Positions 1,072-24,400 of a DNA stretch of 39,797 bases are shown piece by piece. The first letter of the stretch is position 1, and every line of letters starts with the position of its first letter. Under the pieces are notes generated by a model that searched no databases, was not told the DNA's origin, and worked only from the letters and a program-made list of their open reading frames with translations. This DNA is from a virus: IMG/VR virus record IMGVR_UViG_3300049473_000172, positions 1-39,797 of that record; one strand, 5' to 3'. Position numbers and translations under genes: made by a program.

Positions 1072-3384
1072 GTGGACGGGCACGGCTGGATGACGGTTGA
1101 AGAGGTGGCGGCGATGGAAGGGAAAACAAATAGGACAATCAGACGGAACATAAAAAAGTACGGCAAGACCCGTGAGGTCCCTTCGCGCGGGCGTAATGGC
1201 AAGACGACCCAGATCCACGTCTCATCTCTCCCCCCGGAGCTCCAGAAAAAATTTGTGGTCGAGCACGGAATCCATGCCGGCCATTCCATTATACCAAGCC
1301 TTTCCACTGAGGCAGCCCTAGTGGCCACCGAACAAGCGCTGCCCAGTAATATTGGTTTTCCCTCCGGGGCCCCGGAGAATGCCGGTGGAGGGAGACACGT
1401 TACCTCTCCTCTTCCCATTGTCTCTCCCGCCAACAACGGGGCCCCATCACCCCCCTATGTTTTACCCGCCGATATCCTCCGGGACGATCGTGTGGGGAGG
1501 ATAGCGCGGTTCTGTGAGGGGGTCATGAGGCCGCCCAAGGGAATCACCAGGACCGCGCACCTCAAGGCCCTCTGTCTCCGGGAGGGGATCTCTTTGGCCA
1601 CGGGTCACCGGTGGGCAAAGACCTACCACGAGAAAGGGCATGCCGGGCTCAAACATCGTAAATCCAACCGGGGGGAGCCCCGATCCTGGACGCCGGCTGC
1701 TATCGATTTCTGGGTCGGTCTCTGCCTCAAGAGGCCCCACCGCAAGCTCGATTTTGCCCCCCTATACGAGGCCCTGTGCATTGAGGCCCAGAAGCAGGAA
1801 TGGATCATCGGCTCATATTCGTCGGCCCTGTGGTGGTACAGGAAGCGAGTTGTCCCACAATTTAAGGCTCTGCAGCGCGGAGGCCTCCGGGCGCTGGACA
1901 ACCTGCTGCCGCCGGTAGTGCGGGATTATTCAGATCAGCCGCCCCTTAGTATTATAGTGGGAGACCAGCACCGGTTCGATTTTTGGGTGCAGGATGATGA
2001 GGTAGGCACCGTTTTTAGACCGGAAGGCTACTTCTGGCAGGACCTCAGAACCCGCTGCTTTTACGGCGGCGCCGTGGCCAAGAAATACGATGCGCAGCTC
2101 ATGGGCCTGGCCCTGCGCATGGGGATGAAAGTCTTCGGGCCGTTCGGCTCGATCTACACGGACCACGGCAGGCCGGAGGAGTCCAAATACATCATGGGGA
2201 TCCTCAAAGAGATGCGCGCCCTGGGCCTGGAGGCCCGACAAACCGAGGACATCTACGCGGAGCTTGATGGGGTGGATCCCGAAGAAATGCACTGCCTCGT
2301 TTCAATGCCGGGAAGTCACATGAAAGCCGTGGTCAGAAACGCCAAGGCCAAGATGATCGAGGGGACGTTCAGGGAGCTGGAGCGGATCATGCGCAACGTC
2401 CTCAAGGTCCCCGGCCATGTCAAGGATATCAAGGCCCTCCAGGAGGAGCAGGAGGTCGACCACAAGGAGATCGAGCGGCTTGCAGCAGCAGGAAAGCTAT
2501 TGACTTTCCGCGAGTTCGTCCTGGCCTGGCTCAAGGCGATGGATTATTACAACGCTAAAAAGGTCCACCGTGGCGTGCTCAAGGAGTGGGCGTGGAAGCC
2601 GCGGCCAAAGCAGGCCACGCCCATGCAGTGCCTTGCGCAATGCTATCTGGCCGGCGAGTGGAAGCCGGTCCAGGTATCCGAGCAGCTGATCGACATGGTT
2701 TTCCTCAGAAGGACCACTAGGGTGGTGGACCGGGGGAGGATCTGGCTCAACAAGATCTGCTACGAGGCCCCCCAGGGCGAAGGGGAGCGCGAGCTCGCAG
2801 CCTTGACCGGCCAGCGGGTGAGCGTGCGTCACGAACATCCCCTGGATCCCAGTTATGTTCTCATTTTTAATGGAGACACCTTTGTTTGCGAGGCCAGGCC
2901 GGTTGAGCCTTCATCCATGAAGAATAAAGAACTGGCCCGGCGCAAGATCGCCCAGAAGCGCGCCCTGCGCCGGCAGTTCCTCGATGAATACCGCGCCCTT
3001 ACCTCGCGAGTCCCCGATTTTATCCAATATAGCCAAGTTCCCGATGCCGAGAAAGCCGCCGCGATCGTGGGGCGCAAACGCAGACAGCAGGCCCTCAAGG
3101 AGGCCGAGCGCCTACGCCCACAGACAGCAGAAGAGTTGGCTGCCAAGGTGGAGGAGATGGAGCAGCGGCTCTTACCGCGCAGGCCGATCTTTCAGTCCGA
3201 GATCGAGCGGTACCGGTGGATTTTGGACGAGCAGGCACGGGGCAACCCCATATCGGAGGAGGATGCGGCCTTCGTGGCACAACAGGAGGCGGGGATGAAA
3301 CCCGAGACCTTAAAATATTGGGATGTCTACAAGGAAGGGATTGGACTTATACCAACAACGGCAGAAAGAGAGGGTTCATCGTGA
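1072..3384 (+). CDS. A: MuA-type DDE transposase
   Basis: A 770-residue transposase of the Mu A family that would bind both phage ends and carry out strand transfer. The first 60 residues carry the Mu-type winged HTH (MTVEEVAAMEGKTNRTIRR, then SSLPPELQKKF). The integrase-fold core begins near residue 290 with the putative catalytic residues D298 (VGDQHRFDF), D364 (IYTDHGRP) and E430 (AKAKMIEGTFREL). A beta-barrel and a charged helical tail follow; the tail is where MuA contacts MuB and ClpX. The GTG start is preceded by GAGGGGAG with good spacing. The stop overlaps the ATPase start (GTGA), implying translational coupling. Slightly longer than MuA (663). Confidence 0.95.
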   Translation: MDGHGWMTVEEVAAMEGKTNRTIRRNIKKYGKTREVPSRGRNGKTTQIHVSSLPPELQKKFVVEHGIHAGHSIIPSLSTEAALVATEQALPSNIGFPSGAPENAGGGRHVTSPLPIVSPANNGAPSPPYVLPADILRDDRVGRIARFCEGVMRPPKGITRTAHLKALCLREGISLATGHRWAKTYHEKGHAGLKHRKSNRGEPRSWTPAAIDFWVGLCLKRPHRKLDFAPLYEALCIEAQKQEWIIGSYSSALWWYRKRVVPQFKALQRGGLRALDNLLPPVVRDYSDQPPLSIIVGDQHRFDFWVQDDEVGTVFRPEGYFWQDLRTRCFYGGAVAKKYDAQLMGLALRMGMKVFGPFGSIYTDHGRPEESKYIMGILKEMRALGLEARQTEDIYAELDGVDPEEMHCLVSMPGSHMKAVVRNAKAKMIEGTFRELERIMRNVLKVPGHVKDIKALQEEQEVDHKEIERLAAAGKLLTFREFVLAWLKAMDYYNAKKVHRGVLKEWAWKPRPKQATPMQCLAQCYLAGEWKPVQVSEQLIDMVFLRRTTRVVDRGRIWLNKICYEAPQGEGERELAALTGQRVSVRHEHPLDPSYVLIFNGDTFVCEARPVEPSSMKNKELARRKIAQKRALRRQFLDEYRALTSRVPDFIQYSQVPDAEKAAAIVGRKRRQQALKEAERLRPQTAEELAAKVEEMEQRLLPRRPIFQSEIERYRWILDEQARGNPISEEDAAFVAQQEAGMKPETLKYWDVYKEGIGLIPTTAEREGSS

Positions 3385-4076
3385 AAGACGCATTTGTACC
3401 CACGGACAATTATCAGAGGTTTGCGGAGGTGTGTGAGGCGTGTATGTCGGACGCCCACGGGATGGAGATGGTTGCGGTGAAGGGGAAGGCAGGGCTGGGC
3501 AAGACCACCGCTGCCGAGCGCATCGCGGTGGAGAACCCGGATGCCCGCTTCGTGCGGTTCGAGGAGGGGATGACGCCGCTCGGCCTGCTCAAGGAGGTTA
3601 CCTTTGTGTGCACCGGGGAGCGCCCGTTTTTCTGGCGCAAATGCAAGGAGCTGCTCACTCCAGAGCTTGTGCGCCGCAGGGTCCTGTTGATTGTGGACGA
3701 GATTGACCGGGGCGGGCTGCGGCATCTGAATGCCCTGCGCGACCTGCACGACCTGTTCTCCGTGGCGGTGGTGATGATCGGGGAGGAGCCCTTGCTGGGG
3801 ATGCTCCAAAAGGAGCGGAGGCTGATCTCGCGCACGCGCAAGATTATTACCTTCGAGCCGGTGGTGCAGAGCGACGTGATCTACTTTTTCCGCACAGCCG
3901 TCGGGCAGAGCCTTGATCCCGGCCACGCGGCGCAGCTCACCCGGCACAGCGGGGGGAGCTTCCGCCAGGTGGTCTCCGACGCCCTGGCTGCGGAGCGATA
4001 TTTGAAGGTGAACGGGTTGAAGAAGATCAGCGATGAGGTGGTGAAGGCGATTTGCGGGAATGGGGTGCCGACTTAA
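3381..4076 (+). CDS. B: MuB-type AAA+ ATPase, transposition target selector
   Basis: A 231-residue AAA+ ATPase. It has Walker A GKAGLGKT (residues 35-42), Walker B VLLIVDEID (101-109), a strand with VAVVMIGEEPLLG like sensor 1, and an arginine-rich RLISRTRK segment. In Mu, MuB coats target DNA and stimulates MuA; IstB of IS21 is the shorter relative. The frame is open further upstream, but the GTG at 3381 overlapping the transposase stop is the best start. It lacks the N-terminal HTH of Mu B (312 residues), so in size it is nearer IstB. Confidence 0.9.
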   Translation: MKDAFVPTDNYQRFAEVCEACMSDAHGMEMVAVKGKAGLGKTTAAERIAVENPDARFVRFEEGMTPLGLLKEVTFVCTGERPFFWRKCKELLTPELVRRRVLLIVDEIDRGGLRHLNALRDLHDLFSVAVVMIGEEPLLGMLQKERRLISRTRKIITFEPVVQSDVIYFFRTAVGQSLDPGHAAQLTRHSGGSFRQVVSDALAAERYLKVNGLKKISDEVVKAICGNGVPT

Positions 4077-4656: not shown

Positions 4657-4701
4657 TGGTCGGCCAAGATGAGTTTTTTTTGAAGCATGTACGTAGTGGC
4701 A

Positions 4702-4832
4702 GCCCCGCATCTCCAAAAGAGTCGATGCGGGGTGCCTCGGCCCGAAAGGTATCCCCTGTCGCTACGGCGACATCCCGGTTTCCTAAATGTAAATGTAGGA
4801 GCGGGACTGTTAACACGGGCCGACGCAGAGGC
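4702..4832 (+). promoter_or_regulatory. Family A element, copy A2, split by a C element
   Basis: Hairpin 1: GCCCCGCATC (4702-4711) with GATGCGGGGT (4724-4733). Hairpin 2: CGGCCCG (4738-4744) with CGGGCCG (4816-4822), loop beginning AAAGGTATCCCCTGT. The loop is enlarged by about 50 bases of inverted family C element. The 3' end GACGCAGAGG is the ribosome-binding region of the first gemA gene. Confidence 0.75.
4757..4806 (-). repeat. Family C palindromic element, C1, nested in A2
   Basis: Read on the minus strand it is TCCCGC..CGGGA with an inner TCCTA/TAGGA stem and AT-rich loop, followed by TGTCGC-CGTA-GCGACA (4757-4772 on the plus strand). Inverted relative to most C copies. Sits in the loop of the second A2 hairpin. 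Confidence 0.7.
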
Positions 4833-9647: not shown

Positions 9648-10266
9648 AAAGGGTGCTGTTATTAAAAAGGCTATCAAGCAACATGCGCCGGGGGCTATGG
9701 TCTTCGGGTTCGTGCTGCTCTTGATGGGGGTTATAGTAGTTGGAGCGATCCTGATCGTGCAGAACATCGAGACCAAACTGCTCCTGGACCGGCTAGCCGA
9801 GCGCCAGGGGCGCATTGAGGAGCGGCTGGAGCAGCTTACGCCGAAGCGGGACGTCGACAATATGGCCTGGCGGTTCGAGCGGATGCCGTGGTTTTCGTCC
9901 ATCGATGCGGGGGTGATCACGCTCACAATTTACCGTTGCGCCCTCGAACATGGGCTGCCGCCGCGCCTGATAGAGGCCATGATCGTGATCGAATCCTATC
10001 GCAACCCGAAGGCCGAATCGCACAAGGGGGCCAAGGGGCTTATGCAGCTGATGCCCTGCCATTTGGCCGAAGGAGAAGACCCCCATGATCCAATCCTGTC
10101 CATCGAGAGAGGTGCGGCGTATTTTGCGCAATGCCTGCGGGAATGCGGGAATGATTTTGCCTGCGCCCTGTTGAGGTATAATGGCAGCGATCCCGCCAAC
10201 CCATACAAGGAGAGCATCGCATATGCCGAGATGGTGCAGGGGCATTGGGAGAGATTTACACGGTGA
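9637..10266 (+). CDS. Membrane-anchored lytic transglycosylase (SLT)
   Basis: A 209-residue protein with an N-terminal transmembrane helix (about 19-41), a short coiled coil (45-68) and a C-terminal SLT domain. The catalytic Glu is E119 in MIVIESYRNP, followed by AKGLMQLMP and, near the end, ALLRYNGSDP with the usual Tyr-Asn-Gly. It would cleave peptidoglycan glycan strands from the periplasmic face, for DNA entry or lysis. AAAAGGAGG precedes the ATG. The stop overlaps a GTG that opens a truncated gemA fragment. Confidence 0.85.
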   Translation: MGCKKGAVIKKAIKQHAPGAMVFGFVLLLMGVIVVGAILIVQNIETKLLLDRLAERQGRIEERLEQLTPKRDVDNMAWRFERMPWFSSIDAGVITLTIYRCALEHGLPPRLIEAMIVIESYRNPKAESHKGAKGLMQLMPCHLAEGEDPHDPILSIERGAAYFAQCLRECGNDFACALLRYNGSDPANPYKESIAYAEMVQGHWERFTR

Positions 10267-10343
10267 ACCGCAAAACCGCCCTGGCAGCTATCCATATTGC
10301 CCCGCCTTGCGGGATCACTCCCGTTGGAGAGAACATAAGGTGA
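10263..10343 (+). pseudogene. Truncated gemA start, now a 26-codon leader
   Basis: From the GTG overlapping the transglycosylase stop, the frame reads VNRKTALAAIHIA, clearly the first 13 codons of a GemA/Gp16 protein, then runs into family B element B5 and stops at the TGA that overlaps the GTG of the intact gemA at 10340. Bases 10276-10300 match 10356-10380 at 22 of 25, and all three differences are synonymous third positions. So this is the remnant of a diverged homologue, not a fresh duplication, and its translation would be coupled to the intact gene. Confidence 0.75.
10299..10343 (+). promoter_or_regulatory. Family B element, copy B5, at a gene-fusion joint
   Basis: CCCGC-CTT-GCGGG (10301-10313), then TCAC..GTGA around TCCCGTTGGAGAGAACATAAG. 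The conserved GTGA of the second stem is the actual start of the intact gemA gene. Confidence 0.7.
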
Positions 10344-10729
10344 CCGACCGTAACTCCGCCCTGGCAGCCATCCACATCGCAAAGAAGGATTTGGGCATGG
10401 AGGATGAGGTCTACCGTGCGTTTCTCCAGGAGCACACAGGCAAGAGCTCGGCCAAGGAAATGAATCCCAAGGAGCACATCAAGGTGATCCGGGCGTTTGA
10501 GGAGAAGGGGTTTGTACGTAAACGCAGACAATACGACAAAGAAGCTTATATAAGGCTCATTAAGAAGCTATGGCATCAAGTATCTCGTGCCAATGATGAA
10601 CCGCTGGCCCTGCGCAGACGGATATTTAAATACCACCACGTAACCGAGTTGGAACAGCTCTCCATCGAGCAACTCCGGGAGATCTATGCCGACCTCCAGC
10701 GAGCATGCCGGGGATGGCGGCGGTGGTAG
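10340..10729 (+). CDS. gemA: GemA/Gp16-family protein, copy 2
   Basis: A 129-residue Gp16/GemA (DUF1018) protein. It has the diagnostic N-terminus ALAAIHIAKKDLGMEDEVYR, then EHTGKSSAKEMNPKEHIKV and the conserved C-terminal LSIEQLREIYADLQR helix. It is closer to classical Mu GemA than the copy at 4840. The GTG start lies in the 3' stem strand of element B5. The frame is open upstream, but that part belongs to the transglycosylase gene in another frame. Confidence 0.8.
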   Translation: MTDRNSALAAIHIAKKDLGMEDEVYRAFLQEHTGKSSAKEMNPKEHIKVIRAFEEKGFVRKRRQYDKEAYIRLIKKLWHQVSRANDEPLALRRRIFKYHHVTELEQLSIEQLREIYADLQRACRGWRRW

Positions 10730-11024: not shown

Positions 11025-11121
11025 CCCCGCTGAGCGGGGCCACCCCTGTCGTCCCGCACCGCAACAAAGAATATGGGAAGCGGGATGTCACAAGCGACAG
11101 AGAACGCGGAATGTTGGCGGC
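11025..11121 (+). promoter_or_regulatory. Family B element, copy B6, split by a C element
   Basis: CCCCGC-TGA-GCGGGG (11025-11039), then GCCACC (11039-11044) with GGCGGC (11116-11121, one mismatch). The loop motif GAGAACGCGGAATGTTG is present, but a C element of 50 bases separates it from the 5' strand. The lysin start ATG is in the loop at 11111. Confidence 0.65.
11051..11100 (+). repeat. Family C palindromic element, C2, nested in B6
   Basis: TCCCGC (11052-11057) with GCGGGA (11080-11085) around an A-rich loop, then TGTCAC-AA-GCGACA (11086-11099, one mismatch). Removing it restores a normal family B loop before GAGAAC. Confidence 0.7.
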
Positions 11122-12342: not shown

Positions 12343-12564
12343 ATGTTTTTAAAAATTGCCTTTTTTCTTGGGGTACTTGAGCCAGATGCCGCACCAGCGA
12401 GACTGAGCACCAAGTTTCAAATAATGTCTGCTGCCACGATCGCCCTTTTTTGCGGGAAGATCAGCGACGTAGTCTGGGCGGGCCTTGCCGGCGGCTACAT
12501 GACGGCGCGACTCATCAAGGGGGCAATCGAGAAAAAAAATGGCAAAACTACTGAAGTGGGCTAA
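12343..12564 (+). CDS. Membrane protein, holin-like candidate
   Basis: A 73-residue protein with hydrophobic segments at about residues 1-12 and 26-55 (IMSAATIALFCGKISDVVWA, then GLAGGYMTARL) and a charged C-terminus (EKKNGKTTEVG). GGAGG precedes the ATG. Its place among lysis genes suits a holin, but there is no sequence proof. It overlaps the next gene by 26 bases. Confidence 0.45.
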   Translation: MFLKIAFFLGVLEPDAAPARLSTKFQIMSAATIALFCGKISDVVWAGLAGGYMTARLIKGAIEKKNGKTTEVG

Positions 12565-12835: not shown

Positions 12836-13340
12836 ATCCTTTACTTTTAAATCCTTTACTTTAATAGCCCTGGGGCTTTTCCTCCTGAATGGTGGATGTG
12901 CCTCAGCCCTCCTGGGGGGGAGGGCCGAGGTCACCTCGCCCCCAAGGACAACCCTTTTGGGAAAGGGCGAGGCGACTGTACTCCCTCAAATTATCTTTGA
13001 GGTACCTCCTGAAAAGCCTCTTGCGAAAGAGGTCCTCAAAAAAGGGCAGACTGCCCCTGGGGACGGCCTCTGGTTTGATGAAGAATCGGCCAAGATCATC
13101 CTGGGGGACCTCGCCGAGTACCGCCAGCTCAAGGTCAAGGTTCAGATTCAGGAGCAGATCATAAAGGCATACGGGGACCAGGCGCAGCTGTTGCGTGAGG
13201 CTAATGATTTACAGGCCCAGGCCAACCAGGAGCTGCGCAAGGAGATTGAGTCACAGCGGAAATGGAGCACGATTAAAAACTGGGCGTCCGTGGTGGGCGC
13301 CGTGGCCGCCTTCGCCCTCGGTATCTGGGCGGGGAAGTGA
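12810..13340 (+). CDS. Lipoprotein-like protein in the lysis block
   Basis: A 176-residue protein with an N-terminal hydrophobic stretch and a lipobox-like LLNGGC at about residues 25-30, so it may be lipidated. The middle is Pro-rich, then comes a coiled coil (EYRQLKVKVQIQEQI, then REANDLQAQANQEL) and a C-terminal hydrophobic helix (WASVVGAVAAFALGIWAG). Overlaps the upstream membrane protein by 26 bases, as in many Rz/Rz1 pairs. A spanin-like role is inferred. Confidence 0.5.
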   Translation: MNLRDLAIKSFTFKSFTLIALGLFLLNGGCASALLGGRAEVTSPPRTTLLGKGEATVLPQIIFEVPPEKPLAKEVLKKGQTAPGDGLWFDEESAKIILGDLAEYRQLKVKVQIQEQIIKAYGDQAQLLREANDLQAQANQELRKEIESQRKWSTIKNWASVVGAVAAFALGIWAGK

Positions 13341-18191: not shown

Positions 18192-18202
18192 GGCGATAGA
18201 TA

Positions 18203-18334
18203 GCCCCGCATCTCGAAAAACTCGATGCGGCCCCGCACTACAACGAAGAATAAGGACAACGGGGTCCCGCAAGCGGGAGATGCCCCGGTTCGCAAGGAAT
18301 CCCCTGTTGAGACGAACCGACGCAGAGAGGTGGA
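18203..18334 (+). promoter_or_regulatory. Family A element, copy A6, split by a C element
   Basis: Hairpin 1: GCCCCGCATC (18203-18212) with GATGCGG (18224-18230), interrupted by C4, continuing GATGCC at 18279. Hairpin 2: CGGTTCG (18286-18292) with CGAACCG (18313-18319), loop CAAGGAATCCCCTGTTGAGA. GACGCAGAGAGGTGG precedes the protease ATG. Confidence 0.75.
18231..18278 (+). repeat. Family C palindromic element, C4, nested in A6
   Basis: CCCCGC..CGGGG (18231-18264) with an A-rich loop, then TCCCGC-AA-GCGGGA (18265-18278). It lies between the end of hairpin 1 and the start of hairpin 2 of the A6 element. Confidence 0.65.
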
Positions 18335-22008: not shown

Positions 22009-22433
22009 GCTATTGTGATATTGGCGACCTCAAGAACGACATCTCCGAGGCGGAGCTCATCCAGCTGACCGATGATGACGACGCCGGTGTGGTGGATGAA
22101 ACGGTAGTGGCCGATGCCATTGCTGATGCGGACAGCGAGATCGACGCCTATCTCAGGGCCCGCTACGACTTGCCTTTAGACACGGCGCCGAGGATCCTCA
22201 AGAAGCTCTCTGTGGGGATCACGCTCTATTACCTTTTCCACCGCCGGCAGATCGCCAATGAGGTGATCAAGGAGCGATATGACAACGCCGTGAAGCTCCT
22301 GGACCGGATCGCCAAGGGACAGGTCCAGCTGGTAGAGGCGGACGGCGATGCGGTCACAGACGAGGGTGGCCCGCAGGCCAGCAAGACCGAGGGCGACAGG
22401 ATCTTCTCCGACGACACGATGGAGAACTTTTGA
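22005..22433 (+). CDS. Mu gp36-like head-tail protein (DUF1320)
   Basis: A 142-residue protein of the DUF1320/Mu gp36 family: YCDIGDLKNDISEAELIQLT at the start, then DADSEIDAYLRARYDLPLDT and LSVGITLYYLFHRRQ. It is an adaptor-type protein at the head-tail joint. The start overlaps the previous stop by four bases. The match is clear across the whole length. Confidence 0.88.
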   Translation: MSYCDIGDLKNDISEAELIQLTDDDDAGVVDETVVADAIADADSEIDAYLRARYDLPLDTAPRILKKLSVGITLYYLFHRRQIANEVIKERYDNAVKLLDRIAKGQVQLVEADGDAVTDEGGPQASKTEGDRIFSDDTMENF

Positions 22434-22783
22434 CCCCTTGTGTTGCCCCCAAGATGTTGGTCGTGGGCAACGGGCCATCTCCTTGTCGGTGTCATGACAA
22501 TGTGGTCTGCGAGTTTTGCGTCCAGGCGAATCTGATTTTGTGGGAGCGGAAAGAAATGAAAAATGGCAAGCGGAAATATCGGGCCGGAGTGCTCTTAAAT
22601 ACCTTTAAAAAGCTCGACAAAACCCGGTTGGCAACCATGCTCGGGGTTAAGCCTGCGACTATCTATAAGTGGCTGAGATTAAAGAGAATTCCCGTAAAGT
22701 ATGCCATGAAATTCTATCGGAAGTTCAATTTGCAAATCGAACTGGACGCAGGCGGGGAAAACCGTATAAAAAAGGCGGCTTAA
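22430..22783 (+). CDS. Cys-rich HTH protein in an AT-rich insert
   Basis: Up to 117 residues if the TTG overlapping the gp36 stop is used; an ATG at 22454 gives a shorter protein. Residues near 20 (CRCHDNVVCEFC) could bind zinc. The second half has a clear HTH (TRLATMLGVKPATIYKWLRL) and a Lys-rich end. Base composition drops compared with neighbours, and neither this gene nor the next belongs to known Mu head-tail order, suggesting a cargo (moron) insertion between gp36 and gpG. Confidence 0.55.
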   Translation: MTPCVAPKMLVVGNGPSPCRCHDNVVCEFCVQANLILWERKEMKNGKRKYRAGVLLNTFKKLDKTRLATMLGVKPATIYKWLRLKRIPVKYAMKFYRKFNLQIELDAGGENRIKKAA

Positions 22784-22843
22784 GTAGTTGAAATCATTAG
22801 GGCGAAATTGTGGAAAACTCCGTTTTTTTAAAAGTTTGAGATC

Positions 22844-23296
22844 ATGACGATGATAAACGAGCAAACAGTGCAAAAATTACTCAAAAAGTATAAATTCAAG
22901 CCCCCCTTTCATCTGGTGGCTTGCCATTATTGGGTAAGATGGGAAGACGAAATTCTTGCCGAAGTTGATTGTATTTTAAAAAAAGGGGGCCAGGCATATG
23001 CTGTTGAGATCAAGGGGGTGAATCACAAAACCGATAGCGGAAATCATCTTTTATGGAAAGCATCCAAAATTTTGGCTGTTACGAAGATTTTGAATTGTCT
23101 GGAGGCGGAGAGCTATATTCCCAGCATAATGTTGCCGGAGGAGAAAATAACCAGCACTGTTTTGGCAATATGTTTCCATCTAGGGATTGCCCTTTTTGGA
23201 TATTCGGGCGGCGAGGGGAAGAAAGCCCTTTGTATCAAAAATTATGATCTAAATAAGATGTTTCAAAATAAAAGAAGCAAATGGCTATCAGTTTAG
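22844..23296 (+). CDS. PD-(D/E)XK-like nuclease-fold protein
   Basis: A 150-residue protein with a D-x12-E-x-K arrangement (D42 in AEVDCILKK; E55 and K57 in YAVEIKGVNH) typical of PD-(D/E)XK nucleases, followed by a helix with LLWKASKILAVTKILN. It could be an endonuclease or an inactive relative. Its AT-rich composition and its pairing with an HTH gene suggest a small defence, restriction or homing cassette. No ribosome-binding site is obvious. It overlaps the truncated gpG fragment by 16 bases. Confidence 0.55.
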   Translation: MTMINEQTVQKLLKKYKFKPPFHLVACHYWVRWEDEILAEVDCILKKGGQAYAVEIKGVNHKTDSGNHLLWKASKILAVTKILNCLEAESYIPSIMLPEEKITSTVLAICFHLGIALFGYSGGEGKKALCIKNYDLNKMFQNKRSKWLSV

Positions 23297-23484
23297 ATAT
23301 CAATATCAAGGGTGAAAAAGATCTTCTCAAAGACCAGCGGGAGCGTCTCGGGCCGCCCATGCGGCTGTATCCTGTAACCAAGGACTTCGGGGAGCGGATG
23401 CTTTTTTCCATCGAGGAAAATTTCCGCCTGCAGGGTATCCCCTTTTGGGCAGGCGGCGAGAGGTGGCCGGATGCTCCAGCTTAG
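23281..23484 (+). pseudogene. Truncated 5' copy of the gpG gene
   Basis: Reads MAISLDINIKGEKDLL, then RLYPVTKDFGERMLFSIEEN, which parallels LTPVTRDMGERMEYSIEENF of the intact gpG at 23471. It loses homology exactly where the second hairpin of a family A element begins (23424), and the rest of the frame (GIPFWAGGERWPDAPA) is element-derived. It is thus a 5' fragment of a diverged homologue. It may still be translated and coupled to gpG, whose ATG lies inside its end. Confidence 0.7.
23424..23466 (+). promoter_or_regulatory. Family A half-element, A10, at a gene-fusion joint
   Basis: Only hairpin 2: CCGCCTG (23424-23430) with CAGGCGG (23450-23456), loop CAGGGTATCCCCTTTTGGG. Hairpin 1 is missing. 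GCGAGAGGTGG after it is the ribosome-binding region of the intact gpG. Confidence 0.75.
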
Positions 23485-23893
23485 GCTCGATGCAAAGGGC
23501 GCGATAAAGGGATTGCAGGCTATCGGGGGGCGGCTCGCCGGCAGGATGCGGGATCTCACCCCGGTGACCAGGGACATGGGCGAGCGGATGGAGTATTCCA
23601 TCGAGGAGAACTTCCGCCGGGGGGGTAGGCCCGAGAGATGGGAGCCATCCAAAAAGGCCGAGGGCATGACCCTTATCGAAACGGCCAGGCTCAAAAATTC
23701 CATCACCTATCGAGCGGACCGCAAGGGCCTGTCCGTGGGCACCAATGTGATTTATGCCCGGATCCATCAGCTCGGCGGCAAGGCGGGCAAGGGGCACAAA
23801 GTTACCATCCCGGCGAGGCCGTTTCTGGTGGTTCAAGAAAGCGACCTGGCATATTTCAGACGCAGAATATTGGAGCACATTCAACGTGTATAG
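23471..23893 (+). CDS. G: Tail completion protein gpG (virion morphogenesis)
   Basis: A 140-residue protein of the Mu G family: LTPVTRDMGERMEYSIEENF, then GGRPERWEPSKKAEG and NVIYARIHQLGGKAGKGHKV with the closing IPARPFLVV. It works at tail completion and head-tail joining. ATG is preceded by GAGAGGTGG from the A half-element. Full-length for the family. Confidence 0.88.
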   Translation: MLQLRLDAKGAIKGLQAIGGRLAGRMRDLTPVTRDMGERMEYSIEENFRRGGRPERWEPSKKAEGMTLIETARLKNSITYRADRKGLSVGTNVIYARIHQLGGKAGKGHKVTIPARPFLVVQESDLAYFRRRILEHIQRV

Positions 23894-24335
23894 CATCGAC
23901 GAGGTATGGGACGCCGTTATCGCCGCCCTGAAAGGGTCGGACCTCGACGACCTGTGTGCGGTCATTGATTCATATGGCGGGGTGGTGGACGATATTGTTG
24001 AGGAGGCGAGCAAGGGGAGTCTCATAACCGCCCAACTGCCAGCTATTTACGTCCTCTATGGAGGGTCGCGGTTCCCAGAGAAGCTCACCGCCAGCTCCTA
24101 CGACGACCAGCAGACATATTCCGCCATCACCATTGCCAAGGACCTGCGGGGCAGAAAGGAGATGCGCGCGGGGATGTCCCCCTTGCTCGAACTGGAAAAG
24201 GAGGTCCTTATTCATAATGATCTGGGGCTTGAGATCGAGCCGCTCATCCCGGTCAGCATCTTGCCGATCTGGATATCCAAGACGGTCTTTATCTTCGGGT
24301 TCGATCTTATGACATTCTTCTCGATAGAGAAGTAA
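23886..24335 (+). CDS. Mu gp37-like tail terminator (DUF1834)
   Basis: A 149-residue protein of the DUF1834/Mu gp37 type: YSIDEVWDAVIAALKGSDLD at the start, then AQLPAIYVLYGGSRF and LLELEKEVLIHNDLGLEIEP. It probably caps the tail tube. The GTG start overlaps the gpG stop by eight bases. Ends just before element C5. Confidence 0.75.
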   Translation: MYSIDEVWDAVIAALKGSDLDDLCAVIDSYGGVVDDIVEEASKGSLITAQLPAIYVLYGGSRFPEKLTASSYDDQQTYSAITIAKDLRGRKEMRAGMSPLLELEKEVLIHNDLGLEIEPLIPVSILPIWISKTVFIFGFDLMTFFSIEK

Positions 24336-24340
24336 GAAAG

Positions 24341-24386
24341 TCCCACACCTTAAAAATATAAAGGGTGGGATGTCGCGTTAGCGACA
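24341..24386 (+). repeat. Family C palindromic element, C5
   Basis: TCCCACACCTT (24341-24351) with AAGGGTGGGA (24361-24370), then TGTCGC-GTTA-GCGACA (24371-24386). GAGGGAGG follows as the ribosome-binding site of the 24401 gene. Confidence 0.75.
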
Positions 24387-24400
24387 GAGGGAGGTTGATT

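Follow-up and report, generated by a model that had tools for sequence, protein, structure and literature searches.

Introduction

How phage genomes come to be mosaic without the destruction of genes is an old question with two standing answers: exchange at special boundary sequences, or illegitimate joins at random. Outside phages, the double-hairpin elements of mitochondrial DNA pair neighboring GC-rich hairpins and insert into spacers; to our knowledge, none of them carries a translation-start tail. At the module boundaries of mosaic phages, short conserved sequences have been proposed to guide exchange by homologous recombination (PMC3029335). The promoter early stem-loops (PeSLs) of T4-type phages are mobile regulatory cassettes tied to gene shuffling (cited in PMC4503421). 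Cluster K mycobacteriophages harbor SAS/ESAS sequences, 11 to 19 copies per genome beside translation starts and about half with an upstream inverted repeat, and the ESAS positions are conserved among phages (PMC3203893). The Rickettsia palindromic elements are small bacterial palindromes of ~150 bp inserted in frame within genes (PMC10969869). The elements described below resemble PeSLs, SAS/ESAS, and Rickettsia palindromic elements, though a full match was shown for none.

The window analyzed here, the complete 39,797-nt record IMGVR_UViG_3300049473_000172, is a Mu-like virus of sulfate-reducer-type bacteria; profile searches identified a Mu transposase C-terminal domain (PF09299) at 1072-3384 and an AAA MuB-like protein at 3381-4076.

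Organization of the gpG and GemA loci

The original prediction placed a truncated gpG, half of an A element, and a complete gpG next to one another at 23281-23560. This arrangement is real (Table 1), although the proposed interval covers the fragment and the element and ends before most of the complete gene. The frame of the fragment (gpG') begins by overlapping the stop of the preceding open reading frame, its first 48 codons correspond to the gpG N terminus (the first third of this virion gene), and a 72-nt block (23371-23442) matches 23561-23632 in the complete gene at 76%. The fragment was also said to stop where hairpin 2 begins; this holds for its likeness to gpG, whereas the frame continues through hairpin 2 in frame (FRLQGIPFWAGGER-WPDAPA, then the stop) and overlaps the start of the complete gpG by 14 nt. 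The pentamer CCGCC is indeed shared at the joint, as had been claimed, and the complete gpG has TTCCGCC at the homologous codons. Hairpin 2 (23424-23456) reads CCGCCTG-C-AGGGTATCCCCT-TTTGGG-CAGGCGG and is followed by CGAGAGG; hairpin 1 is missing. The half element was recovered by model R1 (30.9 bits, E 4e-6) and shares its geometry with nine other A copies. The complete gpG belongs to the Phage_tail_S/tail completion-Neck1 class and qualifies as a Mu-like gpG by profile; its ATG lies 8 nt past the A tail, whose GAGAGG is likely its Shine-Dalgarno sequence.

Table 1. Features of the GemA and gpG loci in the window
Feature	Position	Strand	Remarks
GemA' fragment (first GemA codons)	10263..10300	+	Start overlaps the stop of the SLT gene
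B element between GemA' and GemA	10298..10346	+	44.7 bits; tail is GGAG plus the GTG start of GemA
Complete GemA	10338..10729	+	GTG start inside the B tail; PF06252, E 3e-17
HTH gene	22430-22783	+	Within the low-GC island; common to the window and G429
Low-GC island	22434..23299	+	42.5% GC against a mean of 56%; lowest 0.3% among 866-nt windows
ORF with a PD-(D/E)XK-like motif by eye	22844-23296	+	Low GC; lies between HTH and gpG'; not present in G429
gpG' fragment frame, 67 aa	23281..23484	+	5' end of a diverged gpG; gpG-like to about 23428
Joint CCGCC	23424..23428	+	Occurs both in gpG coding sequence and in the 5' hairpin-2 arm
Half A element (hairpin 2 and CGAGAGG tail)	23424..23463	+	Stem of 7 bp, loop CAGGGTATCCCCTTTTGGG
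Complete gpG, 140 aa	23471..23893	+	Phage_tail_S PF05069, E 1.7e-23; phrog_26, E 7e-31
D element	24336..24398	+	Last gene in synteny with G429 ends directly 5' of it

The same order had been predicted at an earlier locus, with another gene and another element family, and GemA'/B/GemA (10263-10729) bears this out. The similarity between the gpG head and its upstream region was the highest overall and exceeded all 3102 mismatched gene-head/upstream pairs of the window, as did that of GemA, which ranked second; only these two curated window genes have a head/upstream duplication, and in both the element lies exactly at the joint. Together with the geometry of the half element, this similarity excludes chance for the gpG arrangement. 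The argument against accident is thus sustained, also by a third case in a relative (see below).

Three families of two-hairpin elements

The spacers of the window hold three families of small two-hairpin elements. An A element consists of a CCCCGCATCGCC hairpin, a second hairpin with the loop ARGGWATCCYCT, and then GAGAGAGG; B has a CCCCGC hairpin followed by a second hairpin with GGAGAA in the loop; and D opens with a long hairpin that is followed by GTCGC-GCGAC and AGAGG. All listed copies lie on the coding strand with the exception of one nested D, and GGTATCCCCT occurs six times on the plus strand and never on the minus strand of the window. In the A stems, 69 of 70 pairs are canonical, and 5 of 7 positions have changed on both sides, indicating covariation. 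A start codon follows the tail by 5 to 9 nt in all nine A copies examined, half copy included; the simplest reading of the tail is thus as ribosome-binding site of the gene that follows. A scan of two A elements (21655 and 24639) and the half element for sigma-70-like promoters and T-run terminators found none, and Rfam gave F6 matches alone, all below threshold (28.4 against 46 bits).

Elements are also found within elements. A reverse-orientation D (4758-4815) sits in the hairpin-2 loop of A 4698-4830, which resumes as CACGGGCCGACGCAGAGG; a D-type two-hairpin insert (18230-18282) separates hairpins 1 and 2 of A 18199-18329; and D 11048-11100 lies in the second-hairpin region of a B starting at about 11025. 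An A-like structure (12896-12980; R1, 36 bits) is embedded in a lipoprotein/spanin-like coding sequence. The arms of the second B hairpin (e.g., 20587, 26154, 30017, and 31861) vary among copies yet pair (permutation P value of 0.008). GGAG occupies the loop and the 3' arm falls on the start codon or close to it; these hairpins are possible translational operators.

Filled and empty sites in a related phage

Scanning IMG/VR with the B motif gave one true match (locus L136), located on the 42.2-kb metagenomic contig IMGVR_UViG_3300037424_002814, here called G429. It is 78% identical to the window in TerL and 67% in MuA and has both A and B elements. Among 13 sites with a matchable neighboring gene, an element is present in both phages at only 1, indicating that the elements come and go quickly. 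The half A element is 92% identical to G429rc 12381-12419 over 39 nt.

Several genes differ between the two phages by an element. In gpF of G429, a 49-nt B separates what are codons 11 and 12 in the window gene; the insertion is exact to the base and has no duplication, and the B tail offers an ATG at which the gene can start again. The two gpF genes thus form a clean filled/empty B site. GemA of G429 contains an in-frame A element that is absent from window GemA, with ~25 nt replaced. The G429 homologue of window gene 5328 has an in-frame B between ELVYVASRIDG and LVYAASRIDG, a segment that is single copy (an empty site) in the window gene. This is the third truncated-element-continued case, and it answers the objection that the two window loci might have no parallel. 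Where elements interrupt coding sequence, the overlap between the two parts is far from constant: about -25 nt (A, G429 GemA), 0 (B, G429 gpF), 34 to 38 nt (B, window GemA), about 36 to 39 nt (B, G429 5328 homologue), and ~140 nt (half A, window gpG). At about 40 other elements no flanking duplication was found; significant ones accompany 2 to 3 of about 44 elements, against roughly 0.1 to 0.4% of random positions. With such overlaps, and so many elements lacking a duplication, a single process behind both window loci is not supported.

Beyond these two phages the elements are scarce. The A loop pattern gave only chance matches elsewhere in IMG/VR, none of 46 genomes of one order has an A element, and a 395-genome sample of the phylum of a Desulfobulbaceae MAG has one, in a tail module common with these phages. 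A host chromosome was considered as the origin of A and rejected, since the scan of the genome collection gave chance matches only. Among 43 loci of more distant relatives there was no B, and the better of two weak A scores resembles ordinary coding sequence. The elements thus occur in the window, G429, and a single bacterial-genome tail module, and not convincingly in the 43 distant loci.

Relatives without A or B have other short repeats, tandem heptamer-like or palindromic, in their spacers (L071 9850-10010, L072 3385-3500, L082 11200-11280, and L085 4770-4900), as if every lineage had its own kind of spacer repeat. In two relatives a half-length N-terminal copy of a scaffold-like gene stands 5' of the full-length gene (L072 3494-4679 and L075 7955-9140), with no A or B.

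History of the two gpG copies

In G429, the adaptor and HTH genes are followed by an intact gpG with neither element nor stub, and the spacer 3' of the HTH gene, like the gene itself, is common to both phages. Because the window fragment sits after the same HTH gene as the G429 gpG, it represents the resident orthologue. Over 44 shared columns, the fragment and the G429 protein have 29 identical residues, the complete and G429 proteins 24, and the two window copies 19 (bootstrap values of 0.9998 and 0.97). In a conserved 52-nt block, the two window copies differ at 12 positions, the fragment and G429 at 10, and the complete gene and G429 at 8. The window copies are not each other's closest relatives, which argues against a recent local duplication and for two old alleles brought together; from these comparisons, both copies appear to be older than the split between the window and G429. 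Since each copy is nearer to the G429 gpG than to the other copy, the two copies have different histories. The two GemA copies of the window resemble each other more than they resemble their counterpart in the other phage (6/34 versus 13/34 and 10/34). The same is true of the two parts of the 5328 homologue (6/30 versus 9/30 and 12/30). G429 is about equally close to both gpG copies and therefore names no donor for the complete gene. The window copies differ at 65 of the first 90 nt and at 12 of the next 52 nt (Fisher P value of 1e-8), and this uneven divergence fits proteins diverging under constraint rather than a neutral stub. 'G protein 2' of a Mannheimia phage, considered as a second duplicated gpG, was rejected, as one gpG gene is annotated in that region.

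The genes at 23471-24335 are the last in common with G429, and from the D element onward, i.e., for the whole tail module, G429 gave no match at the threshold used; the gpG joint accordingly lies near a module boundary. On the other side, the ORF preceding gpG' may encode a PD-(D/E)XK-like protein, as suggested by an EVD...EIK motif recognized by eye and by weak profile scores. A search for its relatives detected none, Pfam and PDB sequence searches were weak or empty, and a single-sequence structure model (pLDDT of 68) gave no convincing match in a fold search. In relatives L070 to L086, gpG is found at one of two places, 5' of the g18338/scaffold genes or 3' of the adaptor gene, which indicates that gpG has moved inside the head module.

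Origin of the fragment-element-gene arrangement

The gpG locus is probably the scar of an off-register recombination that joined the 5' end of the resident gpG to an element-led gpG allele, and we hold this view with moderate confidence. The ancestor would have had the order adaptor-HTH-gpG', kept in G429, while in a related phage an A element would have stood 5' of a diverged gpG allele. An illegitimate, off-register crossover at CCGCC may have joined the 5' coding part of the resident gene to hairpin 2 of that element. The incoming gpG would use the A tail as its ribosome-binding site, and the element would thereby be retained; the gpG' stub could persist as a leader frame that does no harm and may be translationally coupled. 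A, B, and D would each be a small mobile cassette for starting translation, built of two successive hairpins, GAGAGG or GGAGAA, and a start codon. Because such elements land before or inside the 5' ends of genes, they would recur at joints of this kind, and because the opposite offset would delete the gpG start and be lost, the order fragment-element-complete gene is what survivorship predicts. The anatomy of the locus, the covariation of the hairpins, the turnover of the elements, their nested insertions, the element-free G429 gpG in the same context, and the apparent age of the two gpG copies support this scheme; the crossover, the parent supplying the element, and the promoting rather than tolerated role of the element at the event are what we infer. 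No parental phage with an A element before a window-type gpG allele was found. Against the scheme, the joint lies exactly at the hairpin base in both window cases, which a random crossover does not require, and the two B duplications are similar in length (34 to 39 nt), which would also suit a fixed target duplication.

The latter point leads to an insertion that duplicates its target directly, by staggered cut or template switch, such that the whole arrangement would be the footprint of a single transposition. The two B cases, GemA and 5328, speak for it: they come from two phages, their overlaps are alike, the element abuts both copies, the copies in each are more alike than either is to its counterpart in the other phage, and the window 5328 gene represents the single-copy empty site. 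As a general explanation it is nevertheless unlikely, given the B in G429 gpF without duplication, the A in G429 GemA that replaced sequence, the many elements without flanking duplication, and the apparent age of the gpG copies. In the two B cases, insertion with duplication of the target is possible; there, the mutual closeness of the copies makes an insertion duplicating ~36 nt equally simple, and for this reason no single mechanism should be claimed for A and B. Coincidence combined with survivorship seems less probable still. Partial gene duplications are common at module boundaries of mosaic phages, many genes are preceded by elements, and element-free N-terminal partial duplications were seen in two unrelated viral contigs (L021 and L061); however, both the excess of flanking duplications at elements over random positions and the restriction of duplicated heads to gpG and GemA, each with an element exactly at the joint, run counter to it.

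It is highly improbable that gpG' is a selected leader whose translation opens hairpin 2 and couples gpG expression. The in-frame read-through and the overlap with the gpG start would suit such a role, but an open frame of such length is estimated to arise by chance in about a third of cases, and no relative examined has kept the stub, the G429 gpG being stubless. An assembly chimera of strains at a repeat deserves equally little credence: both sequences are metagenomic contigs and the joint lies at a repeated element, but the window A copies differ within this element and so lack a long exact match that could bridge them, the start of the fragment overlaps the preceding gene in a native manner, and the analogous 5328 case on the other contig is in frame across its element.

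Off-register recombination thus remains our preferred reading of the gpG locus. A broader proposal, which we put forward tentatively and with considerable doubt, is that A, B, and D are phage-borne mobile translation-start cassettes (in B including the start codon) that invade genes and each other, restart translation, and create joints for module exchange, with a ~36-nt duplication at some B insertions. The elements appear to double as portable gene-start signals and joints: with a boundary that is a mobile hairpin equipped with a gene start, an off-register join can be viable at once. If this is true, this Mu-like phage family supplies joints and both empty and filled sites with which the two ideas on mosaicism can be separated.

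Comparison with known systems

PeSLs are nearest in role, since they too are mobile stem-loop cassettes connected with gene shuffling among related phages; the mobility is matched here by the rarity of shared sites (1 of 13) and by an exact filled/empty site. PeSLs have an early promoter and a terminator as payload, whereas A carries a predicted ribosome-binding site and start codon, and neither promoter nor terminator was seen in the three A elements scanned, for which only the sigma-70 consensus was used. Like SAS/ESAS, the window elements are placed where translation begins and have an inverted repeat upstream. However, the 13-bp GGGATAGGAGCCC is not enriched in the window (20 matches at up to 3 mismatches against 21.5 expected), and ESAS sites are stable, in contrast to the element sites here. 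Compared by description, the Rickettsia palindromic elements share the in-frame insertion into coding sequence seen for A in G429 GemA and B in the G429 5328 homologue, but they are bacterial and ~150 bp long, whereas those described here are 49 to 85 nt long, borne by phages, and found mainly at gene starts. The fixed-length target-site duplication of MITEs is not seen: A and B together give overlaps of about -25 to ~140 nt, and B alone gives 0, 34 to 38, and 36 to 39 nt. The mitochondrial double-hairpin elements have a similar paired-hairpin build but are organellar. Finally, unlike the boundary sequences of mosaic phages (PMC3029335), the one described here is mobile and covaries, and the probable exchange is off-register and leaves a gene stub.
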